Origin: Zingiber officinale
Lineage: Eukaryota; Streptophyta; Magnoliopsida; Zingiberales; Zingiberaceae
DNA: 64,000 bases
NCBI RefSeq assembly: GCF_018446385.1
Contig: NC_055996.1
Location: 47,104,365 to 47,168,364, forward strand
Reading direction: 5' to 3'
Position 1 is the first letter of the stretch. Every line of letters starts with the position of its first letter. Made by a program: the position numbers and the translations under genes. The notes beneath the pieces were generated by a model. It had not been told where the DNA came from, did no database searches, and was given only the letters and a program-made list of their open reading frames with translations. Shown here one piece after another: positions 17,006-56,346 of the stretch.

Positions 17006-17010
17006 TGATA

Positions 17011-17022
17011 TTTTTTGTAGTG
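17011..17022. repeat. CACTA-1 right terminal inverted repeat
   Basis: TTTTTTGTAGTG, the complement of CACTACAAAAAA. It is followed by gac, against ggc before the left end. Confidence 0.9.
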
Positions 17023-18316: not shown

Positions 18317-18365
18317 GAACAGAGGTGAGAGCAGGGGTATTGAAACGGAGAAGGAAGAGAGGGGT

Positions 18366-30877: not shown

Positions 30878-30898
30878 CACTACAACAAAAACTGCAAA
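30878..30898. repeat. CACTA-2 left terminal inverted repeat
   Basis: CACTACAACAAAAACTGCAA, matched for at least 20 bases by the complement of 56324-56343. It differs from the CACTA-1 end, so this is a separate family. Confidence 0.93.
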
Positions 30899-31300
30899 TG
30901 ACAACGGATATTATCCGTTGTCGTAGGGTCAAAAAACCGTTGTAACTGAGGGTGTTGTAAAATGTATTGCCCTATGACAACGGTTTTGAATCTGTTGTCT
31001 TTGTAGACATTTGACAACAGTTTTTATCCGTTGTTGTTTATATGCCCAAAATTTGGCTACGAAGGATACGACAACGTTTTAAAACCATTGTGGTAGATAA
31101 TTCAACAACAGAAATAAACCGTTGTTGTAGACATTTTTTACAACAGATATAAACTGTTGTGGTAGATAATATTTGACACGTTTTATTTTTTTTACAACAG
31201 TTTTAATATATTTTACAACGGATAAAACCGTTGTCTTTTATCACTTTTTACAAAAAAAATTCATTATGGTTTACCTAGTTTTTACAACATTTTTAACTGT
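30899..31300. repeat. CACTA-2 left subterminal repeats
   Basis: Repeated ACAACGG and CCGTTGT words, often as facing pairs (GACAACGGATATTATCCGTT), in progressively decayed form. The likely binding sites for the partner element's TnpA-type protein. 31300-31460 is plain AT-rich DNA. Confidence 0.85.
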
Positions 31301-31460
31301 TGTTTTTAATGTTCATTAATACCAAACAACCAATCTTATTTTACTATAAGCAAACCACCAATACAAAACTAAATATTTACTACATTAAATCCAAAATAAA
31401 CATCCATATATAATTCATCTTGTAGCCACATATACAAAAATATACAAAATGAGTTATTAC

Positions 31461-33676
31461 TGTAACGCCCCAACTCCTGGGTACTAAGCTGTGAGCCGGA
31501 TCGCTACATTAACTACTGAAGCTACTGTGATGTACTGTGCCCTAAACTGAGTAAAATAAAGTTTCACTAACTGACTCTGTTAAACTGACAACTGGTATAC
31601 CCATGCTGTTATAAGGAAGGGTTCAAGACCTTTCCGGTTGGGGTATATGTGCTAAGGAGGATACTTGACCTCCCGTCTGAGTTGGAACTCAAAGCTAACT
31701 TCCCAGCTAGCTACTGTTCGATCCACGGCTCGACCAAACTTGCTGCGATTCTGTGCCCTGCTGGATCGGTCTGCGGACCGATCCAGTAGAGGCTGGATCG
31801 GTCGGCAAGACCGATCCAGGTGTGTCGGGCATTGATATCCAAGTCCAGCTTGATCTGGATCTATTGATTTCGAGATCAGGTTTTACACGACTCTGGTCGA
31901 TTGATCGATCCATCGGATCGGTCGACCGATCCAGCATGAATCGGTTTGTCGTCCGATCCAATTCTGATAGTCTGAAACAAATCAGAATTTCTGATTTCCA
32001 GCACTGATTCGTGCCAAAAATCACATACACAAGCTCTATATACATGAAAAACACTCTAGCATGTAAATACTAACGTTCTAAACATGATAAACTAAACAAG
32101 ACATAGTTTACTGAGCTATAACACCTAGTAACAAGACTAAGTCATAAAACTAGACATGTTAAGTACTAGAACTGAAATAAAAGCGTATAGATCCCAAGGA
32201 TCTTTATTCCAGACCCCTTGCACACACACATCATCGTAGCATCGCCCTCCTCCGCTAGTCCACTTTTCTTTTACCGGTATCTGCAGTATAAGAAAAATAG
32301 CATCTGTAAGCTAAGAAGCTTAGTAAGAAACCATCTACCTCACAAAACATGCAACGATGCGATCATGGTTTTAAATCATGCTGTTTGAAAACCGAACGGA
32401 GCATGGCAACATGGCATGGCATACAACATGTCTTGAATCGATCATGGCATACAAACAAGCTGAGCATAGCATACTGTATCTGAACTAAGCATAAATACTG
32501 AATCGATCATGCATATACATCTAACTGGTCATGAACTCAAATCATGAAACTTAATCGAGATAATTAACTAAAACTGAAACTAAGTTAGTGTTTCCATCAC
32601 CGATTACATATTTGGAAAACTATATATAATAATAGATGAAAATACTAAACATCTTTCTGCAATCTTATCAATCCCACGAGACCGGGATTGCAAGTTCGAA
32701 TCCAAAGAGGTTACTAGGTTATTCGAACCTAGGGACGATCGTGGGAGTCCAATACCATGGATATCGATCCAAGTATGCAATCGAATAAAAGTAAAATATT
32801 GAATCTGTTTTATTTTACTTTGCTATTCTAGGTTATCTGAACCTAGAGCTAGGTTATCTGAACCTAGAGGCTACTGTGAGAGCCCACCCAATGGATATCT
32901 GATCCATATAGCTGTAATAACTGATAATAAGCTGAATAAAATGTTTCTAATACATTTTACATGCTGTTAGGACGCCTACTGGTGCATCCTTCTGAACTGG
33001 GCATTCTACCGAATGCTTGGTGTGCACTAAAAGCACACCCTAAAACTGAAAACTGTAGAACTACTGAACTAACGCCAAAACTAACAAGCGAGAGCAATTA
33101 TACTGTAGGTGAGGGGTTTCTTACCTCCTGTTCGTAATTTCTTACGATTCTATTCGCTCGAATTCCGGTGGAGATGACCTTCTCGACGATCCGCTCACGT
33201 CTTTGCGTTCCTCTCGTGGAGAAGAACCACTTTCGTGTTGAAATCGTCGCCGGAAAGTGTCCTTGGGGCCCTAGAGAAAGAACCCTAGGTCTTCCTTGGT
33301 GTGGCGCCGAAAGAATGAGGAGGAAATGGGAGAGGTGGCGTGAGAGGGTTTCGGTGGAGAAGGATGTGCCGAACCAAAATAAAATAAACCAAACCCTCTT
33401 TAAGTTTCCTATTTATATTAAGTGGATTATTGAACCCAACTCCAATATAAATATAATTGGTTCCTCATTCTTTCAGCACGGCCCTGCTTGGTTCACCGGT
33501 TACTAGCATTATCCCTTACACTATAGGTCTCGGGTTCGATTCTCACTTAAGCTATTTTATTCTTTTAATTATATTTGCTACTTCCGCTACTCGGAAAATT
33601 TCGGAAAAATATCTAAAAATTCCAGAAAATTCATAGAATAATTCTAATGCAAGTTTGAGAATTTTCGGGCGTTACA
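31461..33676 (-). repeat. Gypsy-A 3' LTR (2216 bp)
   Basis: Plus-orientation edges TGTAACGCCCCAAC and GGGCGTTACA, next to the complement of a purine tract (ATCTCCCATACC). It contains GGATCGGTC/GACCGATCC palindromes at 31760-31945. Most of it matches the 5' LTR closely, but the palindrome block and 32690-32790 differ strongly. Confidence 0.9.
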
Positions 33677-33711
33677 ATCTCCCATACCTTATAAAAAGTT
33701 CATCCCCGAAC

Positions 33712-35210
33712 TTAAACCAATTCTGGGTACTTCTGTCTCATGCTGGCCTCTGTCTCCCAAGTCGCCTCTACTGCTGTGTGATTTTGCCAGCTGACTTTGA
33801 CTAATGGTATTTACTTGTTCCGTAATTTCTTTACTGCTCGGTCTATTATCTGAATAGGCCGACTGTCATAGCTGAGATCATCACGGACCTGTACCAACTG
33901 GGGCTCAATCACCTGGGTGTCGTCTGGAATATGTTTCTTCAGCATGGAGACATGAAATACGTTGTGGACAGCTGACATCTCCTGAGGTAGCTCTAGCTCA
34001 TATGCTACCTTGCCCACTCTCTTCGTGATAAGGTATGGTCCCACATATCTGGGAGCTAGCTTGCCCTTCTTCCCAAAATGCATGACTCCCTTCATGGGAG
34101 TTACTCTAAGGAAAACTGTATCCCCAACTGAAAACTCTAGGAGTCTGCGTCGTGTATCAGCATAGCTCTTCTGACGGCTCTGTGCTGTCTCTATCCTCTG
34201 GCGAATCTGCTGTATGGCTGCTATGGTATCTGCTACTAGATCTGTCTGAAGCTCTAGTTCCTTCTGTTCACCACTCTCATACTAGCAGATTGGTGATCTG
34301 CACCTCCGCCCATAGAGTGCCTCATAAGGTGCCATGCCGATAGTGGCCTGATAACTGTTGTTGTATGCAAATTCTGCTAGACTCAGATATTTGCACCAAC
34401 TTCCCTTGAAATCTAAGGCACAAGCCTCGAGTACCTGATTTACTCGCTCCGTCTGACCATCTGTCTGAGGATGGAAGGCTGTGCTGAATTTTAACTGGGT
34501 GCCCATAGCTGACTGTACACACTTCCAGAAGTGTGATGTAAATCTGCTGTCTCTGTCTGATATAATGGTTCGTGGGACTCCATGCAGCCTGACAATCTCC
34601 TTGAGATACAATTGAGCTAGCTGCTCCATGGAATAGGATATTCTGATAGCTAAGAAGTGGGCTGATTTAGTCAACCTGTCGACTATTACCCAGATGGCAT
34701 CAAAACCATTCGTGGTTCTGGGTAATCCCACTATGAAGTCCATAGAGATATCCTCCCACTTCCATTCTGGAATTGGACTCAGTAACTCCTCCCGGTCCCG
34801 ATGTTCCGCCTTAACCCTCGACAGTTAGACAGAATCGGACGATTCTGGCGATATCTCGCTCATCCTGTGCCACCAAAATCGTTTCTTTAGATCCCGATAC
34901 ATTTTGGTGGAACCAGGATGCATCGCATAGGGAGTCCTGTGAGCCTCGTCTAGAATCTGCTGTAGTTCCTCCCGATCCGGAACACAAAGTCTGCACCACA
35001 AGACACTACCCCATCGTGACACTCAACTCTCCACTTTCGATTACGCTAACCCTTGCTTGATTTTCTGGATTTCGGGATCCCGCCCTGAGTGTCTGGATAT
35101 CATCAAGTAAGGTAGATGCTAAGGACATAGTGGAAAGTTGCCCGACTATAAGCTCGAGACTAAAAGTTGTAATATCCTTCCTTAGGGGTGGTGACATAGC
35201 TGCTAAAGAT
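33712..35210 (-). pseudogene. Gypsy-A integrase and chromodomain
   Basis: Zinc-binding region in shifted frames (35020-34800, with MHPGSTKMYRDLKKRFWWHR). The core at 34743-34282 has MDFIVGLPRTTNGFDAIWVI, IISDRDSRFTSHFW and TERVNQVLE, so all three acidic catalytic residues are readable. The C-terminal part at 34095-33811 (MKGVMHFGKKGKLAPRYVGP) is cut by a stop where Glu stands in Gypsy-B. The chromodomain-like end continues to the stop at 33712 (ATWETEASMRQKYPEL). Against Gypsy-B a few codons are missing after NQVLE. Chromodomains of this lineage steer insertion to heterochromatin (family knowledge). Confidence 0.85.
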
Positions 35211-36793
35211 AATAAGGTAGCACTGGACTTCCTGCTGAGTGCGTCTGCTACCTTATTAGCTTTCCCTGGATGGTAGAGGATATCTATGTCATAATCCTTG
35301 ACCAGCTCTAACCATCTGCGCTGTCACATATTCAGATCCTTCTGAGTAAAGAAATACTTCAGACTTTGATGATCTGTATACACTCTGCACTGAGCTCCGT
35401 ACAAATAATGTCTCCAAATCTTGAGAGCGAACACCACTGCTGCAAGCTCAAGGTCGTGAGTAGGATAGTTCCTCTCATAATCCTTGAGTTGTCTGGAGGC
35501 ATAGGCGATCACCTTGCCCTGCTGCATCAGTACTGCTCCTAATCCCAATTTAGAGGCGTCACTGTAGATGTCGGTCGCCTCGTGTTTTCGGTATAGCTAA
35601 AATAGAGCACCGGGTCTCCGCTTTAGTTCACAAGTCGCTCGTAGTCCTCCGTCCACCGAAATTTCTTGTTCTTCTGGTGAGAGCCGCTGGGGAGGCTATC
35701 TGAGAAGTCCTCACGAATTTCTGTAGTAGCCTGCTAATCCCGTAAAGCTTCGATTTCACTAGCGTTCGGGTCTCTTCCGATTTCATCGCTTCTATCTTGT
35801 CGATCTACCATAACACCATCCTTGGAGATGATGTGACCTAGAAAGGCTACCTGGTCTAGCCAAAATTCACATTTCGTGAATTTGGCGTACAGCTGGTTCT
35901 GCTGAAGGATCTGCAAAACTGTCTTCAGATGCTCTGCATGGTCCTCCTGAGTGCCTGAATAGATAAGAATGTCATCGATGAACATGATGACAAACTTGTC
36001 TAAGTATTCTCTGAATACTCTGTTCATGAGGTCCATGAAAGTAGCTGGAGCATTTGTCACGCCGAAAGGCATGACTACGAACTCATAATGTCCGTATCTG
36101 GTCCTGAAAGCTGTTTTAGGTATATCACTTTTCTTGACTCTAACCTGGTGATATCCTGATCTGAGGTCAATTTTAGAGAACACTGTGGCTCCCTTTAGCT
36201 GGTCAAACAGGTCATCTATCCTGGGGAGAGGGTACCTATTTTTAATTGTGACCTGGTTCAAGGCACGGGTAGTCTATGTATAGACGCATGCTTCCATCCT
36301 TCTTCTTCACGAACAACACAGGTGCTCCCCATGGTGAGTGACTAGGGCGTATGAAACCCTTGTCAAGAAGCTCCTGAAGTTCCTTCAGTTCTGCTGGAGC
36401 CATGCGGTACGGTGCCTTGGAAATTGGATTTGTGCCGGGAATGAGCTCTATCTCAAATTCAATCTCCCTGTCTGGTGCTAAGCCTGGTAGCTCTTCAGGG
36501 AAGACTGCTGGGTAGTCACAAACGACTCGAACCTCTGATGGCTGTTGGTTCTTGTCCTGGCTGGTGTTGAGTACATTTGCTAAAAATCCCATGCATCCTG
36601 AATCCAATAGCTGCTGTGCTTTCAATGCTGAGAGAAACTTCCTGGCTTTTCTCTTTGGTTTTCCCATGTACTCAAACTGTACTCCTGCTTCAGGTTGGAA
36701 TATGACCTTCTGTTTATGGCACTCTATAGAAGCACCGTATCTGATCAGAAAATCCATTCCAAGGATGACATCGTAGTCAGTCATTTCTAGCAC
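35211..36793 (-). pseudogene. Gypsy-A protease end, reverse transcriptase and RNase H
   Basis: 36793-36242 covers [20 protein letters not shown] (protease end) to the RT fingers [16 protein letters not shown]. After a frameshift, 36261-35734 covers [28 protein letters not shown] and the catalytic FIDDILIYS. 35730-35570 is badly shifted and is one of the CTG/CAG-altered patches. RNase H at 35548-35324 has [20 protein letters not shown] and [11 protein letters not shown], ending at a stop where Gypsy-B reads Arg (CGA to TGA type). The connection from RT to RNase H is lost. Confidence 0.87.
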
Positions 36794-38227
36794 TATCAGA
36801 TCACCAAAAGTTCTCTCGCTATAATGACCGGCACCGCCTCGAGCCGCGTAGATGCCAAAATGTCTCCGAGGGTAGTGTTGTCAAACCGACTATTGAGTAC
36901 CTCCGAAGTGTTGCTAATTTCTCGGCAAATGCCCCGATACATAAGAGTGGGTTGCCCGATGTCGAATAAGACAACTGCATTATGTCAGAAATATCGATCC
37001 GACTGTGACAACCGCCGAGGCATTTGCTACGCCCTCTCCGGTCAGTGAGAAAATTCGTGCATTTGTCGTGGCTAATCGCCCGACCGATCTGTGGACCATC
37101 TAAGGCAGACATACATCTGATGTAGCTACCGGCCGAGCTCCATATTGTATCGGTCGAGGCCGAGGAAGATCGTTTTGTTCGGCATCGCTAGCCATGTGCC
37201 CTTCCCGTCCACATTCAAAACAACCTCGCATTGCCCTTGCGGTAAACTCCGGATGATGTTTCCCACAAGTAGCACAATTGGGATGTCCGGAATGTTTTCC
37301 ACCGGTCCTCCTTTTGGGTCACCGCTCCTTTGCTTGCTTCTTCCTTCTTGGAGCTATGTCCCCTGTTGTTTCACGAGTACCGAGCCACCTTGTCCCTTGG
37401 GCCTGTGGAAACCCGTCACTGGTGATGTCAGGCCGATAGTGCTCGGTGATCAGAGCACTACTCACTAGCTCCTCTGTGGTTTGTGGCCTATGAACGCCAC
37501 CAGCCACATTCATTGCGATCTCTGGTCTGAGCATCTTCAGCATCAACCGTACTCGTTCCTTCTCTGTGCTGACTAGTTCCGGACACAGACGGGCCAACCT
37601 GTTGAATTTCTTCACGGCTTCCTGAACTGATAGGTTGCCCTGACGAAATTTTGTAAACTCGTCATAGTATCAGTTCATGACTTGCATGTGAAAGAATTCC
37701 TCGAAAAATTCTTTCTCGAAGTTGGCCCATGTCATCTGGTTTACTGACCACTTCGATTTAATCCGCTCCCACCACATGCGTGCGTCTCCTGTTAAACAGA
37801 AGGAGGTACACTTCACCTTTTCGTGCTCTGGCCAGTCTAGAAGCTCCATCGTGCTTTCCAGTGTTTTAAACCATGCCTGAGCATCCCATGGTTCCTTGGT
37901 GCCTGAGAAGTTCTCGGGCTTAATTCTCTGCCACTGGATAAGGTAAGCTTCTCTCTTAGCCCCTGCTACTGGGGCTACTGGGACTGGTACTGCAGGCTGA
38001 GCTGGTACAACCTCTGTGATTACTGGAGTCGTGAGGTTCGGTACTGGAGTGACTGGGGGAGTAGTCTGCTGGTTAGCCTTTAAGGAGGCTATCTCCTGTT
38101 GCTGTTCAGCTAACTGCTGCTGTAGCTGAGCCACTAGTGCTGTAAGGTCTGGGGGAGGCACTGAACTGCCTGCCTCATGCTGGGGCTCAGCCGCTGATGC
38201 TTTCTTAGCTGGACGTCCTCGTACCAT
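36794..38227 (-). pseudogene. Gypsy-A gag and start of protease
   Basis: ATG 38227 opens MVRGRPAKKASAAEPQHEAG, a Gln-rich coil and a Pro/Val stretch. The Retrotrans_gag capsid follows (YLIQWQRIKPENFSG, DARMWWERIKSKW, NFEKEFFEEFF). A TGA at 37672 replaces the Arg codon seen in Gypsy-B. The capsid continues 37615-37319 (FNRLARLCPELVSTEKERVR). The knuckle near 37205 (GCFECGREGHMA) loses its last part to shifts. 37112-36819 holds the protease start in wrong frames. Confidence 0.85.
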
Positions 38228-38460
38228 TTTCTAAATAGCAGAGAACACATATATATAACTAGGCTATCATGTTATAGTTAACTACTGGTAACATGTTAAA
38301 TACTATCACTGTAAACATGAATTAATTAACTACCAACATGAGAGCAAACATGAAAGCACATATAACTGATATGAAAGCTGAAAACAAAACTGAGTGAGAG
38401 ATGTTCTTACTTGGAAGCTGTAGGCACAATGCTGATGTGTGTGTAGGAAGTAAGGAACTT

Positions 38461-38472
38461 GCTCTGATACCA
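38461..38472 (-). other. Primer-binding site of Gypsy-A
   Basis: Minus strand TGGTATCAGAGC, the full match expected for initiator Met tRNA, three bases inside the 5' LTR edge at 38476. Confidence 0.9.
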
Positions 38473-38475
38473 CTC

Positions 38476-40757
38476 TGTAACGCCCCAACTCCTGGGTACT
38501 AAGCTGTGAGCCGGATCGCTACATTAACTACTGAAGCTACTGTGCTGTACTGTGCCCTAAACTGGGTAAAATAAAGTTTCACTAACTGACTCTGTTAAAC
38601 TGACAACTGGTACACCCATGCTGTTATAAGGAAGGGTTCAAGACCTTTCCGGTTGGGGTATATGTGCTAAGGAGGATACTTGACCTCCCGTCTGAGCTAG
38701 AACTCAAAGCTAACTTCCCAGCTAGCTGCTGTTCGATCCACGGCTCGACCAAACTTGCCGCGATTCTGTGCCCTGCTGGATCGGTCTGCGGACCGATCCA
38801 GTAGAGGCTGGATCGGTCGGCAAGACCGATCCAGGTGTGTCTGGATCGGTCTGCAGACCGATCCAGGCACCTGGAGAAGCTGGGATGCCTTCTGTTCGAT
38901 GCTGGGTCGGTCGGCTGACCGATCCAGGGAGATACAATAGGCTACTGTATCCATCTGGATCGGTCGGCTGACCGATCCAGGAGAAGGAATGGCACTGGAT
39001 CGGTCTGCTGACCGATCCAGGTTCTGATAGTCTGAAACGAAATCAGAATTTCTGATTTCCAGCACTGATTCGTGCCAAAAATCACATACACAAGCTCTAT
39101 ATACATGAAAAACACTCTAGCATGTAAATACTAACGTTCTAAACATGATAAACTAAACAAGACATAGTTTACTAAACTATAACACCTAGTAACAAGACTA
39201 AGTCATAAAACTAGACATGTTAAGTACTAGAACTGAAATAAAAGCGTATAGATCCCAAGGATCTTTATTCCAGACCCCTTGCACACACACATCATCGTAG
39301 CATCGCCCCCAGCCTCCGCTAGTCCACTTTTCTTTTACCGGTATCTGCAGTATAAGAAAAATAGCATCTGTAAGCTAAGAAGCTTAGTAAGAAACCATCT
39401 ACCTCACAAAAACATGCAACGATGCGATTATGGTTTTAAATCATGCTGTTTGAAAACTGAACTGAGCATGGCAACATGGCATGGCATACAACATGTACTG
39501 AACTGATCATGGCATACAAACAAGTTGAGCATAGCATACTGTATCTGAACTAAGCATAAATACTGAACTGTTCATGCATATACATCTAACTGGTCATGAA
39601 CTCAAATCATGAAACTTAACTGAGATAATTAACTGAAACTGAAACTAAGTTAGTGTTTCCATCACTGATTACATATTTGGAAAACTATATATATAATAAT
39701 AGATGAAAACACTAAACATGTCATTGGCCCCGCAATCAGATTTCATCGCGCAGATCCCTACGAGACCCGGATTGCAAGTTTCAATCCAGCAGGTTACTAG
39801 GTTATCTCGAACCTAGGGACGATTGTGGAGTCCAGCCCATGGATATCTGATCCAAGTGCAGTGCCAACTGAATAAAATACTGAATACTGTTTTATTTTAC
39901 TTTGCTATTCTAGGTTATCTGAACCTAGAGCTAGGTTATCTGAACCTAGAGGCTACTGTGGGAGCCCACCCAATGGATATTTGATCCATATAGCTGTAAT
40001 AACTGATAATAAGCTGAATAAAATGTTTCTAATACATTTTACATGCTGTTAGGACGCCTACTGGTGCATCCTTCTGAACTGGGCATTCTACCGAATGCTT
40101 GGTGTGCACTAAAAGCACACCCTTAAACTGAAAACTGTAGAACTACTGAACTAACGCCAAAACTAACAAGCGAGAGCAATTATACTTCAGGTGAGGAGTT
40201 TCTTACCTCTTGTTCGTAATTTCTTACGATTCTATTCGCTCGAATTCCGGTGGAGATGACCTTCTCGACGATCCACTCACGTCTTTGCATTCCTCTCGCG
40301 GAGAAGAACCTCTTTCGTGTTGAAATCGTCGCCGGAAAGTGCCCTTGGGGCCCTAGAGAAAGAACCCTAGGTCTTCTTGGTGTGGCGCCGAAAGAAGGAG
40401 GAGGAAACGGGAGAGGTGGCGTGAGAGGGTTTCGGTGGAGAAGGATGTGCCGAACCAAAATAAAATAAACCAAACCCTCTTTAAGTTTCCTATTTATATT
40501 AGGTGGATTATTGAACCCAACTCCAATATAAATATAATTGGTTCCTCATTCTTTCAGCACGGCCCTGCTAGGTTCACCGGTTACTAGCATTATCCCTTAC
40601 ACCATAGGTCTCGGGTTCGATTCTCGCCTAAGCTATTTTATTCTTTTAATTATTTTTGCTACTTCCTCTACTCGGAAAATTCCGAAAAAATATCTAAAAA
40701 TTCCAGAAAACTCATAGAATAATTCTAATGCAAGTTTGAGAATTTTCGGGCGTTACA
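38476..40757 (-). repeat. Gypsy-A 5' LTR (2282 bp)
   Basis: Same edges as the 3' LTR, 66 bp longer. 38775-39022 holds five regular CTGGATCGGTCNNCNGACCG-type palindromes where the 3' LTR has a different, less regular block. Near 40610 GGTCTCGGGTTCGATTCT resembles a pol III B box on the plus strand, opposite to the element. Small open frames within are not genes. Confidence 0.9.
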
Positions 40758-40762
40758 ATTAC

Positions 40763-41996
40763 TCATCAAAATACACATGTTTTCCATTACTCTCCATATA
40801 CATTAAATCACATGTTTTCCATTTGCTATTCTCCATATGGCTTTTAATTTACAAATTAGCAAGGCAAACTACATCCTAACAAAGCTCACTTCTTGCATAA
40901 AAAAAACTCAAGCCTCACGAATTGCCCGACCTGCAAGAGAAAATTTAACAAAACTTATCAAATTCCAGATTTCCAAAAGGAGAATGTAATTAACCAATCT
41001 GTAGTGCATAGAAGGCAAAAACAAACCAAATGAAGGAAACAAAAAGAGGTGTTTATTAGAGAATAATAGTACATGGAATCTACTAGGAGCAGTGATACCT
41101 AGCTTAGCATAGTTTATTAAATAATTAGCACTGCATGCAGCTAACATTATTTAAGTGAACTATCATCCAAGATCAATAGAATCCATGCAAAGCGCATTAC
41201 ATTCATTAACATCTTGAAACAAAATATTCATGCAATTTTCTATGCCATTTTCCAGACTGCATTACCTTTGAGACCTGGTAGGCACAATATGCTTTTCCAT
41301 TTTGCAAGTAACAAGTTTCCAGGAGCTGCAAATTGATCTGAAATAAATAGACCCATCACAAAAGCATAAGTGAAAGTAAAAAACATGGGTTCAAAATCTT
41401 CCAATTAAAACTTGAACCAAAAGAATTGGATCATCATGATGAGTTATGGTAGGGTGAATTGTTTGTAGAGCTAAAACAATTCCACAAATTCCTCAAAATA
41501 GAAATCACATACGCACAACTTTAATAATTACATAGGATACCTAAAAGAACCAAAGTGTCAATTAAATAAGTGTAGATTAAGAGGTATAACATTCACTACA
41601 TTCCAGCTGGAAAAATAGATTTTTCATTCCCATTTCATCAATACAAAGAGAAAATCTAACAAATTTAGCTGCAATGCGCGTGCAATTCACGGGTAATTTA
41701 CACTGCTCATCCAAGCAAAAGTATATAGAGCAAACTATTAAGAAATCAAACTGCAGTATATAGATGTCAGCTACTCACACAACCCAGCCATTATTAATTT
41801 TGGACCACAAAGAGAGGCAATAAATAAGGGAAATGTCAGCTAATTCTGCTCATGGTAGAAATGCAAGAATGAAGTATTGAGCAAAGGAGATATCTAGTTG
41901 TGAACAAACAAATGATTAGCACTAAGGAATCAAAATCAATAAGTCATGGAGTCACAAACAAAGTGTTCAACCATCTTTTGAAGTCTAGTAATTTAT
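40763..41996. other. CACTA-2 DNA between the two nested chromoviruses
   Basis: 1.2 kb of AT-rich sequence left over from the body of CACTA-2. I see no reading frame or family match on either strand, and no subterminal repeats. It may be an intron or spacer of the original transposon. 41992-41996 is the left copy of the Gypsy-B target duplication tttat. Confidence 0.5.
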
Positions 41997-44453: not shown

Positions 44454-44456
44454 GAG

Positions 44457-44468
44457 TGGTATCAGAGC
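44457..44468 (+). other. Primer-binding site of Gypsy-B
   Basis: TGGTATCAGAGC, three bases after the 5' LTR; initiator Met tRNA type. Confidence 0.92.
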
Positions 44469-44646
44469 AAAGTTCCATACTTCTTACACACACATCAGCA
44501 TTGAACCTGTAGCTTTCAAGTAAGAATACCTCTACTTAATTTATGCTCCTTGTTTTGTTATTACAGTTCATGTTTATATGCCTACTGCTTGTTAGTATGT
44601 GATAGTTTTTAAACATGATATCAGTAGTTATATAACTGTGAGTACA

Positions 44647-44957
44647 TGTAACGCCCCGGCCTGGGTGGGCCCCACCCGAACCGAACCGGGCACGCTACGA
44701 GAATTGTCCATCGGGTTGACGACTAGCTCCACAGACCACCGGAGGTCCTTTCAGCGTGCTTTGTCCTCACTCGCACGCACCCTGGAAAACTTCCCAAGAG
44801 GTAACCCATCCTCAGATTTCTCCAAGCCAAGCACGCTTAACTTTGGAGTTCTTAAGTTTGGGCTTCTGAAAAGGAAGGTGCACCTTGGTGATATGGATAG
44901 TACCATCTAACCCTTTTTAGCCATACTTAACTAGAATCTCAGAACCGGGGTATTACA
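44647..44957 (-). repeat. TRIM LTR, left copy
   Basis: 311 bp; differs from the right copy by a handful of changes such as CTGGGTGG against CTGGTGG. A short open frame in each copy is an LTR shadow. Confidence 0.93.
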
Positions 44958-45103
44958 ATCACCTCCACTTAAAGACACAACGTCCTCGTTGTGTAATCAC
45001 AAATCACACCACAGACAAATCCCAGAATCTCCCTCGCTAGGTGGTGCCCTGGGTGCTCCTGCCACAGGCGCACTCACGGTTGCAAGGTCGCTCTGATACC
45101 ATC

Positions 45104-45413
45104 TGTAACGCCCCGGCCTGGTGGGCCCCACCCGAACCGAACCGGGCACGCTACCAGAATTGTCCATCGGGTTGACGACTAGCTCCACAGACCACCGGAG
45201 GTCCTTTCAGCGTGCTTTGTCCTCACTCGCACGCACCCTGGAAAACTTCCCAGGAGGTCACCCATCCTCAGATTTCTCCAAGCCAAGCACGCTTAACTTT
45301 GGAGTTCTTAAGTTTGGGCTTCCGAAAAAGAAGGTGCACCTTGGTGATATGGATAGTACCATCTAACCCTTTTTAGCCATACTTAACTAGAATCTCAGAA
45401 CCGGGGTATTACA
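45104..45413 (-). repeat. TRIM LTR, right copy (5' LTR in element orientation)
   Basis: 310 bp, next to the primer-binding site at 45090-45101. Confidence 0.93.
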
Positions 45414-45450
45414 GTACATTAGTTATGTTATGTTCTCTATGTCTTTAGAA

Positions 45451-46700
45451 ATGGCACGAGGACGCCCAGCTAGAAGGGCACTAGCTACTGAGCCCCAGCA
45501 AGAGGCTGGCAGTTCAGTGCCTCCTCCAGACCTTACAGCATTAGTGGCTCAGTTACAGTAGCAGCTAGCTGAACAGCAACAGGAAATAGCCACCTTAAAG
45601 GCTAATCAACAGAGTACCCCCACAGTCACCCCGAAACCGAATTTGACGACTCCGGTAGTCTTAGAGGTTCCACCAGCTCAGCCTACAACACCAGCACCAG
45701 CACCAGCACCAGCACCAGCAGCTGAGCCAAGAAAGGAAGCCTACCTGATCCAGTGGCAGCGGGTCAAGCCAGAGAACTTCTCAGGCACTAGTGAACCATG
45801 GGATGCACAAGCCTGGTTCAAAACACTGGAGAGCACGATGGAGCTTCTGGACTGGCCAGAACACGAGAAGGTGAAGTGTGCCTCCTTCTGCCTGACAGGA
45901 GAATCAGAACGAAGCGCCCAGTGAACCAGATGTCATGGGCTGACTTCGAGAAGGAGTTCTTCGAGGAGTTCTTTCATATACGGGTTACAAACCGCCACTA
46001 CGATGAGTTCACTGAGTTTCGTCAAGGCAACCTTTCAATTGAGGAAGCCGTGAAGAAATTCAACAGGTTGGCTCGTCTTTGCCCAGAGCTAGTCAGCACA
46101 GAGAAGGAACGAATCCGGTTGATGCTCAAGATGCTGAGGCCAGAGATAGCAGTGAACATGGCTGGTGGCATACATAGGCCACAAACGACAGAGGAGTTAG
46201 TGAGCAGTGCCTTGACCACAGAGCATTACCAGAACAGCATAAAGCAGCAGAAGCAAGTCTCCTCAGAGTCCAAAGGCCAAGGAAACTCTCACACTCAAAA
46301 ACAGCAAGGTCACAGCTCTACCTGGAAAGGGAACTCCAACAGCAAGCGCAAATCAGGGAGTGACCCAAAAGGAGGACCATCTAGCAAGCGACCCAGTTAT
46401 CCAAAGTGTGCTACTTGTGGGAAATTCCACCCAGGGGTTTGTCGCAAGGGCACACGAGGATGCTTTGAATGTGGACAAGAAGGGCACATAGCCAAGCAGT
46501 GCCCGAACAAGACCGGTCTTCCTCAGCCACAGCAGATTCAGTATGCAGGCCAGCCAGCTCAGTTATATCAGATGCAGGCCGCTCTAGAAGGTCCAGGGCA
46601 GATTAGAAGCCCCTCCAGCTATGGCGAATGCGAGGATCTACTCACTCACCAGAGAGGACGTAGCCAATGCCTCGACAGTTGTCACAGGTCAGATTAGCAT
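45451..46700 (+). pseudogene. Gypsy-B gag (capsid and CCHC knuckle)
   Basis: ATG 45451 starts MARGRPARRALATEPQQEAG. Codon 37 is TAG where Gypsy-A reads Gln. An Ala-Pro repeat (PAPAPAPAPA) and the capsid YLIQWQRVKPENFSG follow. At about 45900 a deletion of roughly 28 bp removes the DARMWWERI stretch present in Gypsy-A and shifts the frame. The capsid then continues to 46697 with FEKEFFEEFFHIRV, EEAVKKFNRLARL and the nucleocapsid knuckle CFECGQEGHIAKQCPN, after an upstream CATCGKFHPGVC. Gag would form the virus-like particle and package RNA. Confidence 0.9.
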
Positions 46701-47229
46701 TTTTCAGTATAGTGCTACTGTTCTATTTGATACTGGGGCAACCCATTCATATATAGCCAGGCTGTTCTCCGAAAAATTAGAAATACCCTCCGAGGTACTC
46801 AGTGGTCAGTTTTTGACGGCACTACCTTCAGGAGATATCATGGCATCCACGCACTGGCTCAGAGCAGTGCCGGTCATTATAGCAGACAGGGAACTCTTTT
46901 GTGATCTGATCCTGCTGGAGATGACTGACTACGACGTCATCCTTGGAATGGACTTCCTGATCAGATACGGTGCTTCCATAGAGTGCCGTAAATAGAAAGT
47001 CGTATTCCAACCCGAAGCAGAAGCATAGTTCGAGTACATCGGAGAACCAAAGAGAAAAACCAGAAAATTTCTCTCAGCTATGAAGGCACAGAAGTTGATG
47101 GATTCGGGATGTACGGGGTACTTAGCACATGTAGTCAATACCAGCCAGGACAAGGACCAACAGCTAGCAGGGGTCCGAGTTGTATGTGACTACCCAGCAG
47201 TCTTCCCTGAAGAGTTACCAGGCCTATGT
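46621..47229 (+). pseudogene. Gypsy-B aspartic protease region
   Basis: In a frame shifted from gag, MANARIYSLTREDVANASTV leads to the active site FDTGATHSYI (Asp near 46729) and [20 protein letters not shown], the second conserved protease block. A TAG at 46993 interrupts where Gypsy-A has Gln, and another follows near 47026. The linker to RT then shifts frame near 47226. The protease would cut the Gag-Pol polyprotein. Confidence 0.87.
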
Positions 47230-48682
47230 CAGGGAGATTGAATTTGAGATAGAGCTCTTCCCCGGCACCAATCCTATTTCCAAAGCGCCATATCGCATGG
47301 CTCCAGCAGAATTGAAGGAACTTCAGGAGCAACTACAGGAGTTGCTTGACAAGGGCTTCATATGCCCTAGTCACTCACCATGGGGAGCGCCTGTACTGTT
47401 CGTGAAGAAGAAGGATGGAAGCATGCGGCTATGCATAGACTACAGGGCACTGAATCAGGTCACGATCAAGAACAGGTATCCTCTTCCCAGAATAGATGAC
47501 CTGTTCGACCAGTTAAAGGGAGCAGCAGTGTTCTCTAAGATTGACCTCAGTTCAAGATATCACCAAGTCAGAGTCAAGGAGGGTGATATACCGAAGACAG
47601 CATTTAGAACCAGATACGGACATTACGAGTTCGTAGTCATGCCCTTTGGCGTGACCAATGCTCCAGCTACATTCATGGATCTCATGAATAGAGTATTCAG
47701 GGAGTATTTAGATAAGTTTGTTATTGTGTTTATCGATGACATTCTTATCTACTCAGGAACTCAGGAAGAACATGCAGAGCACCTGAAGACAGTACTACAG
47801 ACACTTCAGCAGAATCAGCTATATGCCAAGTTCACGAAATGTGAATTCTGGCTTGATCAGGTGTCTTTCCTAGGTCACATCATCTCAAAGGATGGTGTCA
47901 TGGTAGACCCCAGCAAAATAGAAGCAGTAAGTAACTGGAAGAGACCGAAGAACGCCAGTGAGATCAGAAGCTTTCTGGGATTAGCAAGTTATTATAGAAA
48001 GTTTGTAGAGGACTTCTACAGGATAGCCTCCCCACTGACAGCTCTCACCAGGAAGAACAGGAAATTTCAGTGGACAGAGGACTATGGGAACAGCTTTAGC
48101 GAGCTAAAAAGAAGATTGACCAGTGCTCCCATTTTGGCTCTACCAGACAACACCAGCAGCTTTGACATCTATAGTGATGCCTCTAAGTTGGGACTAGGAG
48201 CAGTATTGATGCAAAACGGCAAGGTGATCGCCTATGCCTCCAGACAACTCAAGGATTATGAGAATAATTACCCTACTCATGACCTGGAGCTTGCAGCAGT
48301 AGTGTTCGCTCTCAAAATTTGGAGACATTACTTATATGGAGCTCAGTGCAGAGTGTATACAGATCATCAGAGTCTGAAGTACTTCTTCACTCAGAAGGAT
48401 CTGAACATGCGACAGCGCAGATGGCTTGAGCTGGTCAAAGACTACGATATAGATATCCTCTACCATCCAGGGAAAGCCAATAAGGTAGCTGACGCACTTA
48501 GCCGAAAATCCAGTGCTACCTTATTATCTCTTACAGCCATGTCACCGCCCCTCCAGAAGGAGATCGTAGATTTCGGTCTAGAACTCATCGTTGGACAACT
48601 CTCTACTATGACCTTAGAGTCTACCTTGCTTGGTGATATTCAGTCAGAGACCCTGAAATTCAGAAAATCAAGCAAGGGCTAG
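47230..48682 (+). pseudogene. Gypsy-B reverse transcriptase and RNase H
   Basis: One open stretch of about 480 codons, the longest in this element. RT motifs in order: [48 protein letters not shown], the catalytic FIDDILIYS (47726-47752) and [16 protein letters not shown] tether follows with [15 protein letters not shown]. RNase H has [46 protein letters not shown] and [17 protein letters not shown] reads RYHQV here. The frame ends at 48682 just before the integrase. Domains look complete, but they cannot be translated with gag. Confidence 0.92.
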
Positions 48683-50011
48683 CAGAATCAGAAAGTAGAG
48701 AATTCAGAGTGTCCGATAGCGGGGTGTTGTATTTTGGTGACAGACTCTGTGTTCCAGATCAGGAGGAGCTACGGAGACAGATTTTAGATGAGGCTCACAA
48801 GACTCCCTATGCGATGCATCCAGGTTCCACCAAAATGTATCAAGAACCATTTTTGGTGGCCCGGGATGAAGCGAGACATCGCCAGATATGTTAGCATCTG
48901 CCTCACCTGTCAGAGGGTCAAGGCAGAACATCAGCGACCAGGAGGAGTTCTGCAGCCTATACAGATTCCAGAATGGAAGTGGGAGGATATCTCCATGGAT
49001 TTCATAGTGGGACTGCCCAGAACCACGAATGGTTTTGACGCCATCTGGGTAATAGTCGACAGGTTGACTAAATCAGCCCACTTCTTAGCTATCAAGATAT
49101 CCTACTCCATGGAGAAGCTAGCTCAGTTGTATCTCCAGGAGATCGTCAGACTACATGGAGTCCCACGAACCATCATTTCAGACAGAGACAGTAGATTCAC
49201 ATCACACTTCTGGGAGTGTGTACAGTCAGCGTTGGGCACTAAGTTAAAGTTCAGCACAGCATTCCATCCTCAGACAGATGGTCAGACGGAGCGAGTAAAC
49301 CAGGTACTCGAAGATATGCTCCGAGCGTGTGCCCTAGACTTCAAGGGAAGTTGGTGCAGATATCTGGGCTTAGCAGAATTTGCATACAACAACAGCAATC
49401 AGGCCACTATCGGCATGACACCCTACGAGGCTCTCTACGGGCGGAGGTGTAGATCTCCAATCTGCTGGTATGAGGGTGGTGAACAGAAAGAACTAAAACT
49501 TCAGACAGATCTAGTAGCAGATACCACAGCAGCTATACAGCAGATCTGTCAGAGGATAGAGACAGATACACGGCGCAGACCCTTAGAGTTCTCAGTTGGG
49601 GATTCAATGTTCCTCAGAATGGCTCCCATGAAGGGAGTAATGCGTTTTGGGAAAAAGGGCAAGCTAAGTCCCAGATATGTGGGACCATACCTTATCAGTA
49701 GAAGAGTGGGCAAGGTAGCATATGAGCTAGAGCTACCCCAGGAAATGTCAGCTGTCCACAACGTATTTCATGTCTCTATGCTGAAGAAGCATACCCCAGA
49801 TGCCACCCAGGTGATTGCGCCCCAGTTGGTACAGATCCGCGAGGACCTCAGCTATAATAGTCAGCCTATTCAGATAATAGACCGAGCAGTTAAGAAATTA
49901 CGGAACAAGGAAGTACCATTAGTCAAAGTCATTTGGCACAGTCACACAGCAGAAGAGGCAACTTGGGAGACAGAAGCCAGCATGAGACAGAAGTACCCAG
50001 AATTGTTCTAA
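48683..50011 (+). pseudogene. Gypsy-B integrase with chromodomain
   Basis: 48683-48790 carries the start in another frame. From 48788 one frame of 407 codons covers the cysteine pair ICLTCQRVK and the catalytic core (MDFIVGLPRTTNGFDAIWVI, IISDRDSRFTSHFW, TERVNQVLEDM, giving D, D, E). The GPY-like region is FGKKGKLSPRYVGPYLI and VFHVSMLKKH. The terminal chromodomain-like stretch is RNKEVPLVKVIWHSH to WETEASMRQKYPELF. The stop at 50009 lies 38 bp before the 3' LTR, the normal compact layout. Against family expectation a segment around QRIETDTRRR is shortened. Confidence 0.92.
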
Positions 50012-50046
50012 GTTCGAGGACAAACTTTTTATAAGGTATGGAGGAT

Positions 50047-52505
50047 TGTAACGCCCAAAAATTCTCAAACTTGCATTAGAATTATTCTGTGATTTTTCTG
50101 GATGTTTTAGATATTTTTCCGGAATTTTCCGAGTAGCGGAAGTTGCAAAACTAATAGAAAAGTAAAATGGTTTAAGCGGGAATCGAACCCGGGATCTCTC
50201 GGGTCCGCTAAACCTTTAGTTAGCCTTAGTAACCGGTGAACCCAGCAGGGCCGTGCTGAAAGAAAAGGAGAATCAAATATATTTATATTTAAGTTGGGCT
50301 TAGTTATCCGCTTAGTATAAATAGGAAAAAAAAAACTTAAGTGTGGGTTTGGTTTAATTTGGTTCGGCATCCCTCTCCTCACAAAACCTCACGCCAATTC
50401 TTTTCTCCAAACCCTCACCGACGTCAACCCCTCCTTCCTCTCCTTCTCTCGGCGCCAACACCCAAACAACCTAGGGTTCTCTCCCTAGGGCCCCAAGGTC
50501 ACTTTCCGGCGACGATTTCAGCACGAAGACGTTCCCCTCCACGAGTAGAGCACGTGGACGCGAGCGGATCGTCGAGAAGTCGTCTCCACCGAAATTTCTA
50601 GCGATTAGATTTGTAAAAAATCTAGCACACAAGGTAAGAAACCCCTCACCTGCAGTATAAGTAGCTCCGTTTGGTTTTATACGCACTAGTTTAGCTATAT
50701 GCTGTTTTTATTGACGCATAGGGTGAATTTGACCCTCCTCGCAGATTTAGGGATTTAGTGAGTACTTCTAGATGGGCTGGACACGTATTCCCTCTTCAGT
50801 GGGGGTTCCTAGATGTTGTCGGGTGCCTATAAGTGGTCTCCCTAATAGAGGGGAGAGTTGGGGCACACTAGGTGTTCGATAAAATAGCTAGTTAAGTTAA
50901 AATGCAAATTAGACATTTTAATAGCTCAGTTAAATGCATTAGAAGCATTTAAATCAGTAAATCAGTTTATTTTAGCTTATATGGGACTACGGTCCAATGG
51001 GTGGGCTCCCACAGTCGCCTCTAGGTTCAGACAACCTAGCTCTAGGTTCAGATAACCTAGAAACAGCAAGTTAAAACAGTTAGTTATATTCAGTATTTTA
51101 CTTTCAGTGGCACTGTACTGGATCAGATATCCATTGGGTTGGACTCCCACAGTCGTCCCTAGGTTTAGATAGCCTAGTTAACCCTACTAAATTCGGGACT
51201 TGCAAACCCGGGTCTAGTTAGGGATGCGCGCACAGCAAGTACAGTTGCCAGGGCCCATCAGCAGCATGTTTAGTATTTTCACTTACTATATGTATATGGT
51301 TTTCAACCTTTCACAAAGTAGTTTGCGAATTCAGTACAGTCCTAGCTGTAGCTCAGTTTTTAGTATCAGCTTAGTTCTTTATTGATACCATGTGATTGAT
51401 ATCATGTTCAGCTTTAGATATGTCATGATTGTATGCTTATATGCCATGCCATGTTTAGTTTATTCAGTATACTTAGCATATCCTTTCAAACAGCATGATT
51501 TAAAATCATATTTGCATCGTATGCATGTTTTAGTGAGGTAGATGGTTTCTTACTAAGCTTTTTAGCTTACAGATACTATTTTCCTTATACTGCAGATACA
51601 GGTAAAAGGAAAATGGACTAGCAGAGGAAGCTAGAGGCCAATGCAAAGATGGTGTGTGTGGTAGGAACTGGAATAAAAGATTCTTAGGGGACTTAGCAAG
51701 TTTAAACCGTAGAACTCTTTAGTGTTTTACTTTCATGCACGTTTAGTTGTGTAATGCTATGAATCAGTGAACTATGTGTCATGTTAAGTTTAGAATACTA
51801 GTTTTATGTTATTAGAATGTTTCTCATGTAGTGTATAACTCATATGTGAGATTTTGGCACGCCTAAGTGCTGAAATCAGAGTTTCAGGCTGAAATCAGAG
51901 TTTCAGGCTAAAATCAGAACTCTGATCGGTCTACAGACCGATCAGGGAGTGGGTTGTGCCGCTGGATCGGTCAGCTGACCGATCCATGCGCGAACAGAGA
52001 GTTGGCCTCTGTTATGGATCGGTCAGCCGACCGATCCAATTTGCGAACAGAGAGCACTGACGCTCACTGATCGGTCAGCCGACCGATCAGTGTGCTACTG
52101 GATCGGTCAAGCCGACCGATCAGGGTACTCCTGGATCGGTCGGTAGACCGATCCAGCCGCATATAGAGGCGAGGGAGCATATGGATCGGTCTGTCGACCG
52201 ATCCATAGAGTTTTTCCGTGCCAGTAACAAGCTGGATCGATCACGGGATCGATCCGACAGCCCAATCGATCTATGGATCGATTGAAGTGCCTGATTACAG
52301 CTAGCAGGCCATCCGAGGGGCATAGATTATCTTCCCTAACATGTGTACAACTCCTAGGTACACCTAGAACACTAAGTTAAACTTTACAGCATTTAGTTCA
52401 GTAAAATTTTAAATTAGCCAGTTTTCATTCCGCATTAATAGTCCAGCACAGCAAAACTGTAGCGACCGGCCTCGCAGCCTAGTCAGTAGGAGGCGGGGCG
52501 TTACA
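50047..52505 (+). repeat. Gypsy-B 3' LTR
   Basis: Preceded by the purine-rich AGGTATGGAGGAT. Same structure and length as the 5' LTR, with the palindrome array at 51923-52290. It ends 8 bp before the stop codon of the CACTA-2 protease gene (52513). Confidence 0.93.
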
Positions 52506-52512
52506 TTTATAC

Positions 52513-53580
52513 CTAGTAATGAATATAGTCTAGTACGCAATCCGCCCATTCGGATCGCACTTCGTCAATTTCTTCGTTAGAGTAAATTGTTTTCATGAAC
52601 TGTTAACAAACCCAGATTATATTAGTAAAAAAATCAGTAATGAAGAAGCAAAGTCAAATAAAAGAAATTATTTGAGAAAATTGAGAATATGTCAAATATT
52701 ACCATTAAGCTAAGTGAATCCTTCTCACCGGTAGAATTTCCTTCAATAATTTCTCTCATAAATTTCATCACATAAAACCCACATTATTTAGCATCAGGTT
52801 GTCAAGGACCCTATGTTAACAAAAAATTATCAACGAATAATGCACAGTTAAATATTTTTAAATTAATCACAAGTAAACATATGTGTGTATATATAATATA
52901 CAAACCTTTACGACTTTCCACATAGGCTTCTTTTTCCCTTTCCTTTGCTTGTGTGAATTGAACAATTTCAAGCTCCTTTGTACAACAAGAGTTGATGTAT
53001 GATTAATAAATTAAATTAAATGCTTAATTAAAAAATAAATATGTACTCACATATCCACTACATATTTCCAGTCCTCATAACGATTGTGATGATTAAATGA
53101 ATCGAACAAATAAACCATCTCCACATAAGGGTCGATGACAGTCAAAATCCAATGACAACTATGCACAAAACAGAGTCAATGCATAAATTCAACAGAATTG
53201 TTGAAATAAATCTATTAAAAATGAAATTGTAATATTTATTTACCCAACATTATGAGATGCCAAAACTAGCTGATTTTTTGTTGCACCACTCAGCCTATCA
53301 GCCAAAACACTTGCCTAGCTATTCAAGTATTCAATCTTTTCATTTTTGTCAAGTTTGGATACATATGGCATTACTGGAAGCGTTTGTGGATCCAAAAATC
53401 TGAACTTATCCCTAATGAACAGATTAGGGATAAGTTAACTAATAGAATACTAATAAGTTAATTAGTAAAACGTAAGAACAGTGCAATAAATATTAATAAG
53501 TAAGAGAATTACTCAATATAAGGATCAACGTCAACATCATTTTCCAAGACATAACGATGTGCTTGATGCAATGGACTATG
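52513..53580 (-). pseudogene. CACTA-2 Ulp1-like (C48) cysteine protease exons
   Basis: Exons, minus strand: end of a chimeric exon 53580-53513 ([19 protein letters not shown]), then 53411-53244 (DKFRFLDPQTLPVM, ADRLSGATKNQLVL), 53158-53051 (GCHWILTVIDPYVEMVYLFD), 52975-52906 (LKLFNSHKQRKGKKKPMW), 52810-52703 (QPDAK, stop, CGFYVMKFMREIIEG) and 52599-52513 to a stop. All joins are GT-AG and keep frame. The HW, the Asp of LFDS and the QPD...CG layout match the His-Asp-Gln-Cys site of Ulp1/SUMO proteases often carried by plant transposons. A TAG in the second exon, TGA in GP-stop-QP and TAA just before the active Cys inactivate it. The N-terminal part was probably lost or replaced by PEPCK. Confidence 0.85.
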
Positions 53581-55931
53581 CACCAGAGCAGTGTAACCGC
53601 TGATGAAGTGATACATTGTTTGCGGTAAAGTAAGTTTGCTAACTGGTGGAAGCACGCCAAAAGCATCACATGCCAAGAGGATGACATTCTTAGGGTGCGG
53701 ACCAACACACGGTATCTTCGCATTAGGAATATACTCAATTGGATATGAAGCTTGAGTGTTCTCTGCAACATCAACAATTCCATTGAACCAAATTCCCTTT
53801 CACACAATACCAATTCACTCAAGAAGTTTGTTTCATATTGTTAATCACCTGTAATAGAGTTATCAGAGTAGTCTACTTCCCTAGTGTGTTCATCGAAAAC
53901 GACGTTTTCCAACACTGCAAGAAATTTGCAAACATTAGGACAAAAAAATATAAATGGTTCCAGTTCAAAGTGCATGTCGAGTTTGATAGGGCACTTGCCG
54001 GTTCCAAATTTGACGGCATTCCAAATGTCAGGTTCCTTCTTCTTTGATAGGTCGATACATTTTGCATAGCAACCTCCTTCAATGTTTGAAATACCATTTT
54101 CACTCCAGCAATGCTCATCATCGCCAATAAGAAGCCTGTTGTGGTATGTAGACAGAGTAGTTTTCCCTGTGCCTAAAACAACAAAGCAAAAGTCATAAGA
54201 ACAAAGAAGCCATATGGCAAAAACACTGCAGTGTAACATAATTCTACACATTTACACATGGAATGCTTCTAGTTAAGTTGCAAAGGGCAGTATAGTAACC
54301 ATGCAATGGTCAGGTGATGCACCAGAATCTCGTCCGACCAACACTTACCTGATAGTCCAAAGAAGAGGGCAACATCACCATCTTTGCCCATATTGTTGCT
54401 AGAGTGCAGGGAGAGAATGTTTCTTTTAGGCATTAGATAGTTCATCACACTGAACAAACCCTTCTTCATCTCCCCGGCATACTGTGTGCCAAGGATGACC
54501 ATTTCTTTCCTATCAAGATTAAGATCAATGCTGGTGGAGGTAGTCATGTAGTGTGTGTATCGATTACATGGAAACTGGCCAGCATTGTAAATTGTGAAGT
54601 CCGGAGTACTGAAATCCTCCAGTTCTTCAGGCGTAGGACGGATGCACCTGCAATCCTTCCAATTATTTCATGCAAAAGAGAGTTTTTATTCTTCTAGTTT
54701 ACATGTTTTCCCTTGGCATTAAGGAGAGAAAGAGGAGCTAGTTAGCTCACTAACACTAATATATGCATATGTATGATCCAGCCTGCTACTAACACAACTA
54801 TGATTCACTACTAGAGATCAACAGAACAAATTGGTCATTCACAAATACCTTGTATCATTCAGATGACATATTAGGATCTATGAGGAATTACATCAAACAC
54901 TTGATGTGCATGTGTACCTTATCCAAAGAGTTGAGGTAATTGACAACCCTCTCCCTGTTCACTAGGAAGGTGTGCTCATCCATCTCTATGTTCGGTGAGC
55001 CTTTGCATGAATAGTGCACATACATTTTGAGAAGGAACCATCAATGGAAGGATCATGAATTAGTTGTGTGGACTTACTTTCCCCACCAAAGCTCATTGGC
55101 AGTGGTTTCATCCTTGACGACGCGCTTGTCCCTCGGCGAACGGCCAGTCTTCATGCTGGACAAGGTAGCCAAGGCTTCGGTCGATGTTATGAATGATCCA
55201 TGTTCATGTTTTATGGCTTGCTCGTAGAGTTCTACAAGGAATTCGTGATTCTTTCAATGAGAATGAAATGTGATGATTTGAGTGATGAAGAGGAGATGAG
55301 AGCAGATACCGGGCGGGGAGAGGTTGTAGAGGACATGGGTAAACTTGAGGGTGCTGTCGCTGACGCTGATGGTCGGCGTCAAGTAGTGGTGGTGCTCGGC
55401 TGCGACCTTGGTCGCCTCCGCCTTCCTGGCCGGATCGCCCCTCACCACCTTCGGCCCTGTCTCCCTCGTCAGCGACGCCAATGAATCACTGCGCACAGCA
55501 CGATTTCATTACAAGAAACGCGAGAGAAAGATTGGATTCCACCTTCTTGTTCTCAAGAATTATTTCCTTTTAGGTTTAGAAAAATCGATCCGCCGGTGGC
55601 CCACCAGTATCCGGCAAGGAATCTGGATGTTTCCCCCTTTTTTTATTATTGAGAAAGAGATGTTTGTTTGGAGATTAAATATTGACCTGATGGATTGGAG
55701 CAGGAGCTTCTGGCGCTCCTCCTCTGAGATGGTGGCAAAGGCAGCGTTGCCCTGCTGCGCACCGTCCTTGATGGGGGTGGTCGGCGCCGACCTCTTCTTC
55801 TGCAGGGAGTGCAGTTCATCGATGGTCTTCGCCTTCACCGGCGGCGCGCTGTCGTCATGGCAGATCCCGTTCTCCGATTTCATCCTCCCGTGCGTCTGGA
55901 TCTTCGGCAGCCCATTGGAGAACGCCGCCGC
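53581..55931 (-). pseudogene. Captured phosphoenolpyruvate carboxykinase (ATP) gene fragment
   Basis: PEPCK turns oxaloacetate plus ATP into phosphoenolpyruvate and CO2 in the cytosol. Exons on the minus strand: 55931-55687 (5' end cut), 55488-55310, 55231-55078, 55000-54918, 54647-54349, 54172-53999, 53914-53849, 53762-53581, about 460 of some 650-670 residues. Clear matches: [47 protein letters not shown], the P-loop GLSGTGKTT across a splice join, and LIGDDEHCW. The next Asp of the P-loop region (STDHNR in the family) is Tyr. One exon (about 34 codons after NSLDK) is missing, and the 55078/55000 join shifts frame. The intron at 53998 starts GC. The C-terminal third is absent; the last exon passes in frame into the transposon exon. 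Confidence 0.92.
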
Positions 55932-55984
55932 TCACCAGGAAACGAGAAGGAGCACAACGTCGTATGAGGAGAAGGAAAGATAAA

Positions 55985-56343
55985 TGACTTAGATTTGGGA
56001 ACACGAAAACACAGCGCCTAAAAGAAAACAACGAGGGAAAGGAAAATAGCGAAGGGGAGAAATGACCAAATTCAATTACAACGGTTTTTTCAAAACTGTT
56101 GTCGTAGCCGCTAAAAACGCGGATAAAGACAACGGTTTATAAAACCGTTGTAAAAAGTGTTGTCGTTTTAAAAAAAAGTCACTCAATGACAACAGTTTTG
56201 CTAAAACCGTTGTCTTTTATATTTAATTGGGAGTTCAAAGACAACGATTTTGACAAAAACCGTTGTCTTTGAACAAATACGCAACGCTTTATCTTAAAAC
56301 CGTTGTCGTAGGGGTGTTGTCGTTTGCAGTTTTTGTTGTAGTG
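55985..56343. repeat. CACTA-2 right subterminal repeats and terminal inverted repeat
   Basis: From about 56080, pairs of ACAACGG and CCGTTGT with short spacers, then the end TGCAGTTTTTGTTGTAGTG (56325-56343), followed by the target duplication ttt. 55985-56080 joins the captured PEPCK to the repeats and may include its promoter or leader. Confidence 0.88.
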
Positions 56344-56346
56344 TTT

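Follow-up and report, generated by a model that had tools for sequence, protein, structure and literature searches.

Gene capture by CACTA elements is already well known, and several described systems resemble the locus analyzed here. A close precedent is Tgm-Express1 of soybean wp, a 5.7-kb CACTA element that carries five fragments of host genes, with introns kept (PMC1947982). Pack-CACTA elements of Arabidopsis, rice and maize are non-autonomous, have CACTA TIRs and carry host coding DNA, and the cargo of those in maize often comes from more than one locus (PMC8903248, PMC13317346). Furthermore, CACTA families with a ULP domain have been described in grapevine and proteins combining Tnp2 and ULP1 in rice; in grapevine the Ulp1 domain lies within the elements Cactavine-2, -3, -4, -5 and -13, and some Cactavine-5 copies also carry a piece of a host gene (PMC2528002).

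The 64-kb window, the whole stretch of DNA that was analyzed, very probably contains a non-autonomous, gene-capturing CACTA element of about 5.65 kb in which a phosphoenolpyruvate carboxykinase (PEPCK) sequence replaced the front of the transposase gene, and into which two Ty3-type retrotransposons inserted later (Table 1). The host is a plant, probably a flowering plant. It shares with Tgm-Express1 the CACTA ends, a similar size and intron-bearing host gene pieces, which in the soybean element include malate dehydrogenase and CDC2. However, Tgm-Express1 as described has five fragments, whereas one long PEPCK stretch and a possible CDC27 exon are present here; Tgm-Express1 interrupts the second intron of a host gene, and the element described here a retrotransposon; and remnants of the element's own genes are found here, unlike in the description of Tgm-Express1 (PMC1947982). 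Retention of part of its own genes also distinguishes the element from the Pack-CACTA elements as described (PMC8903248, PMC13317346). Compared to the Cactavine elements, the front of the transposase is missing, with PEPCK apparently in its place (PMC2528002). No PEPCK carried by a CACTA element was found in the literature searched, which was covered partially and included few subscription papers, and phosphoenolpyruvate carboxykinase in combination with Pack-MULE gave no literature match. What is particular to this element is its PEPCK cargo, together with the in-frame joint and the nested insertions.

Table 1 Features of the CACTA element, its target site and its contents (positions in the window)
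Feature	Position	Strand	Remarks
CACTA element	30878-56343		bounds exact; span 25,466 bp including nested insertions
Target, upstream half of decayed copia-type gag	56344..56494	-	50 stop-free codons before joint
Target, downstream half of same gag	30562..30874	-	4 stops in first 34 codons after joint, then one apparent frame switch
TSD TTT, left copy	30875..30877
Left TIR	30878..30898	+	CACTACAACAAAAACTGCAAA
Left subterminal repeats	30899..31310		exact ACAACGG/CCGTTGT, 8; 15 counting ACAAC[AG]G
LTR retrotransposon 1, putative Ty3 type	31461..40757	-	LTRs 31461-33676 and 38476-40757; K2P 0.065 (computed with edges a few bases off); TSD ATTAC 31456-31460 and 40758-40762
CDC27/APC3-like exon	41266..41337	-	24 codons between AG and GT; within core piece 40763-41996
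LTR retrotransposon 2, putative Ty3 type	41997..52505	+	LTRs 41997-44453 and 50047-52505; K2P 0.0215 (computed with edges a few bases off); TSD TTTAT 41992-41996 and 52506-52510
Degenerate Ulp1/Peptidase_C48 exons	52513..53404	-	E 4.2e-11; three in-frame stops
Stretch like C-terminal tail of tnp2-type CACTA transposase	53512..53580	-	23 codons; in frame with PEPCK exon 9
Captured PEPCK fragment	53581..55931	-	nine exon pieces, introns kept; total 1,404 nt
PEPCK exon 1	55931-55687	-
PEPCK exon 2	55488-55310	-
PEPCK exon 3	55231-55078	-
PEPCK exon 4	55001-54918	-	without in-frame AG acceptor
PEPCK exon 5	54848-54828	-	21-nt remnant
PEPCK exon 6	54647-54349	-
PEPCK exon 7	54172-53999	-	GC donor
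PEPCK exon 8	53914-53849	-
PEPCK exon 9	53762-53581	-
Right subterminal repeats	56075..56322		exact ACAACGG/CCGTTGT, 6
Right TIR, inverted	56323..56343	-	CACTACAACAAAAACTGCAAA
TSD TTT, right copy	56344..56346

Ends and target site of the CACTA element

A preliminary description had the element bounded by TIRs, subterminal repeats and a ttt target duplication, and this was borne out in every respect. The TIRs begin with CACTA and are identical at 21 of 21 positions, with TTT on both sides; no further copy of the 21-mer with up to 3 mismatches occurs elsewhere in the 64-kb window. The motif ACAACGG/CCGTTGT was found 14 times in the 64 kb, exclusively in the ends of the element (eight times in 30878-31320 and six times in 56060-56343) and at each end in both orientations. 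The 3-bp target-site duplication is a hallmark of CACTA (En/Spm) elements, which also have subterminal repeats at each end, in direct and inverted orientation. With TIRs, 3-bp duplication and subterminal repeats all present, the element is a member of the CACTA (En/Spm) superfamily. Because TIR and subterminal motifs are restricted to both ends, the two ends belong to one kind of element.

The target site was identified as a decayed copia-type gag. This gag lies on the minus strand, with its first half in the right flank and its second half in the left flank, and when both flanks are rejoined with one TTT the gag similarity continues in the same frame over the joint, where the alignment gives no sign of missing sequence. 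The rejoined peptide, with stops read as X, scored 29.3 bits with Pfam Retrotran_gag_2 (cut-off 27 bits; residues 1-84, profile 46-126), and a variant with one frame switch farther downstream scored 32.2 bits, while the first half alone reached 15.6 bits and the second half alone gave no match with this profile. A counterpoint is the presence of the four stops within 34 codons after the joint. Because the gag similarity runs through the joined flanks, these represent the empty site, and both TIRs belong to one insertion. The finding that the preliminary description itself named as speaking against it, namely two TIRs belonging to different elements, is contradicted by this continuity. Direct repeats with 74-79% identity are present at 26388-27710 and 56997-58074, one on each side of the CACTA element; possibly these are the LTRs of an old copia element that holds the gag.

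These observations also bear on a reading in which PEPCK is a native gene or pseudogene situated between unrelated CACTA ends. Such an origin would account for the kept introns and the normal order of the exons. However, the gag similarity is continuous between the outer ends with one TTT, the TIR and subterminal motifs are common to both ends and found nowhere else in the window, and the PEPCK frame continues into a tail like that of a transposase (see below). On the basis of gag continuity, end-restricted motifs and tail joint, a native PEPCK pseudogene between two unrelated CACTA ends was rejected as almost certainly incorrect, in favor of a single inserted element that contains PEPCK.

A second, different CACTA element is present at 9386-17022. 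A single 753-aa frame encodes both Transposase_21 and Transpos_assoc, and later frames encode DUF4218 and DUF4216. The element has TIRs CACTACAAAAA and subterminal repeats of the CCGACGGAAT type, and is flanked by GGC and GAC, which is no perfect 3-bp duplication. A Dof zinc-finger frame (17840-18364, minus strand, Pfam E 1.5e-31) lies near this second element. Ten of the 26 outside reading frames were submitted to Pfam, and this is the only one of the ten that is likely to be a host gene. The window also harbors a tandem duplication of 366 bp (5424-6156, 97% identical), and Rfam gave 0 matches in the window at gathering thresholds.

Nested retrotransposons and the core

Self-comparison revealed two pairs of long direct repeats within the CACTA element, which are the LTRs of two retrotransposons. 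Three reading frames, one from the first and two from the second retrotransposon, were analyzed with Pfam. Both contain reverse transcriptase. The second also matched RNase H and an integrase zinc-binding domain, and its matches with integrase core and chromo remained below the Pfam cut-offs. The domain order points to the Ty3 type for these insertions. The two are also mutually related: aligned in opposite orientation, they are 80% identical over 5.3 kb. Together with their duplicated target bases they occupy 19,816 of the 25,466 bp, and the CACTA core comprises 5,650 bp. The preliminary description, which took the 25.5-kb span as the element, had missed these two complete LTR retrotransposons. 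With a substitution rate of 1.3e-8 per site and year, the K2P distances would date the insertions to about 2.5 and 0.8 (0.83) million years ago. Since both retrotransposons lie within the CACTA element, this element is older than the first of them.

The core piece between the two retrotransposons contains a 72-nt stretch that reads INLQLLETCYLQNGKAYCAYQVSK. In a search of a structure database at E up to 10, all five distinct sequences listed were CDC27/APC3, with whole-sequence E values of 0.036-0.082 and i-Evalues of 0.41, 0.68 and 0.68 in the three alignments shown; Pfam gave no match for this stretch. Plant CDC27 presumably fits the stretch better than the listed structure sequences do. The similarity makes a CDC27 origin fairly probable, and suggests, less firmly, that this exon may be a second captured gene fragment.

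The PEPCK fragment and its joint

Eight PEPCK exons had been counted in the preliminary description. Nine exon pieces were found, with exon 5 reduced to a remnant. The spliced reading of 468 aa matched Pfam PEPCK_ATP with 468.5 bits (E 3e-140) and solved PEPCK structures, for example 1ii2 (E 4e-97). In tblastn, with the 80 best of 580 confirmed bacterial PEPCK loci as queries, all 80 shared a base in each of the intervals 53581-53781, 53811-54242 and 54329-54643, and 78 of these 80 shared a base in 54876-55433; the same 80 queries revealed no other PEPCK intervals in the 64-kb window at E<1e-3. The homology stops sharply at 53581, within exon 9, and the best PEPCK_ATP stretch ends at profile position 359 of 465, leaving about 23% of the domain absent at the end. 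Because the fragment is truncated, it may well be a copy of a PEPCK gene elsewhere.

Reading frame and homology were used to set the exon boundaries, and the splice-site counts exclude the donor of exon 5, which is a remnant. The donors have GT in six of seven cases (GC follows exon 7) and the acceptors AG in seven of eight; at exon 4, AA would have to serve as acceptor for the frame to be kept, and use of the nearby AG would shift it. The retained introns rule out a processed, mRNA-derived copy and argue for capture from genomic DNA, in agreement with what had been proposed before.

Several features show that the PEPCK copy is broken. TGA directly precedes codon 1, at a position where ATG would presumably be expected in a plant PEPCK, and an in-frame ATG is first reached at codon 17 (55883). 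A block following exon 5 in five bacterial PEPCK rows is absent, while exons 1-3 and 6-9 are free of stops. As judged from its sequence, the captured copy is unable to encode a whole PEPCK. Conservation was also checked at 121 columns that are at least 97.5% invariant in the 80 best of the 580 bacterial PEPCKs. The captured copy differs at 12 of these 121, compared to 0 to 6 (mean 0.51) for each bacterial sequence versus the other 79, a difference that was set aside as evidence of decay, since some mismatches may be ordinary plant differences.

Beyond the break in exon 9 the same frame is continued by 23 codons whose translation is similar to the C-terminal tail of a tnp2-type CACTA transposase. 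In a comparison with 1,973 window peptides (itself included), the best non-self match of this tail was the end of the transposase region (the DUF4218 part) of the second CACTA element, with a score of 45 against 33 for the next, and none of 2,000 shuffles reached 45; this match was not reported in two tblastn runs. Both tails end with PYI and two further bases followed by GTAA, an intron donor at the same place and in the same phase. No matches of tnp2, DUF4218 or DUF4216 from the second CACTA element were found in the core below E 0.5, and core reading frames of at least 90 aa coincide with PEPCK and its surroundings or with repeats. The only putative transposase remains in the core are the 23 tail-like codons, and the element is predicted to be without a functional transposase.

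The C48 domain lies on the same strand as the transposase-like tail and behind it. Because this tail and then the Ulp1/C48 exons come after the PEPCK break, the element looks like a derivative of a CACTA-ULP element in which PEPCK would stand in place of the front of its own transposase. Since one random joint in three keeps the frame, little weight was given to the in-frame position of the joint at 53580/53581.

It could be argued that the chimera of PEPCK, transposase tail and Ulp1 is an expressed gene kept under selection, in view of the in-frame joint, the stop-free exons 1-3 and 6-9 and the in-frame ATG at codon 17. This is highly improbable: TGA instead of ATG precedes codon 1, exon 4 is without an in-frame AG acceptor, the remainder of exon 5 is missing, the Ulp1 part has three stops with a retrotransposon directly behind its end, and the frame at the joint would be kept by chance in one case out of three.

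Origin of the composite element

The TIRs, target-site duplication and subterminal repeats, the finding of no transposase core, the truncated, intron-bearing host gene and the empty site together support classification as a Pack-CACTA element. The preliminary description had arrived at the same classification, and had overlooked the nested retrotransposons, the tail joint with the Ulp1 domain behind it, and an exon possibly derived from CDC27.

The ancestor would have been a CACTA element with both an Ulp1 domain and a transposase of the tnp2 type. Genomic PEPCK sequence, reaching from approximately the beginning of exon 1 to a point within exon 9, would have taken the place of the front of the transposase gene, most likely by aberrant excision and repair or by fusion of neighboring copies. 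Breaks repaired from another template provide one route of capture. In the other, the uptake model proposed for Pack-CACTA elements, two insertions close to each other are mobilized as a single unit after losing the ends that face each other (PMC8903248, PMC13317346). The capture of PEPCK fits either route. Since the tail and the Ulp1 exons remain, PEPCK may have entered a CACTA-ULP element rather than the space between two bare ends.

The composite would then have been mobilized in trans by an intact relative acting via the TIRs and subterminal repeats, and have inserted into the old copia gag. Mobilization in trans is proposed, if the composite moved at all after the capture, because no transposase core was found. 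Alternatively, the element reached the gag without PEPCK, which was copied into it at this site when a failed excision was repaired. The abrupt junction within exon 9 agrees with this order of events, a single copy would look the same under it as under capture before insertion, and nothing decisive speaks against it, as the mechanism is the same, only later in time; it is considered unlikely. Two Ty3-type retrotransposons landed in the CACTA element afterwards, at dates estimated at about 2.5 and 0.8 million years before present.

It is a speculative and improbable idea that the PEPCK fragment, in the presumed place of the transposase front, is transcribed and gives rise to a chimeric PEPCK-transposase-Ulp1 RNA, or to small RNAs tuning the parental PEPCK gene. 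The current view of Pack-CACTA elements is left unchanged by this locus. It adds a well-bounded case to the catalogue, in which one stretch shows TIRs, an empty site, an exon-internal breakpoint and an in-frame joint to a transposase-like tail, and in which two subsequent insertions set a minimum age.
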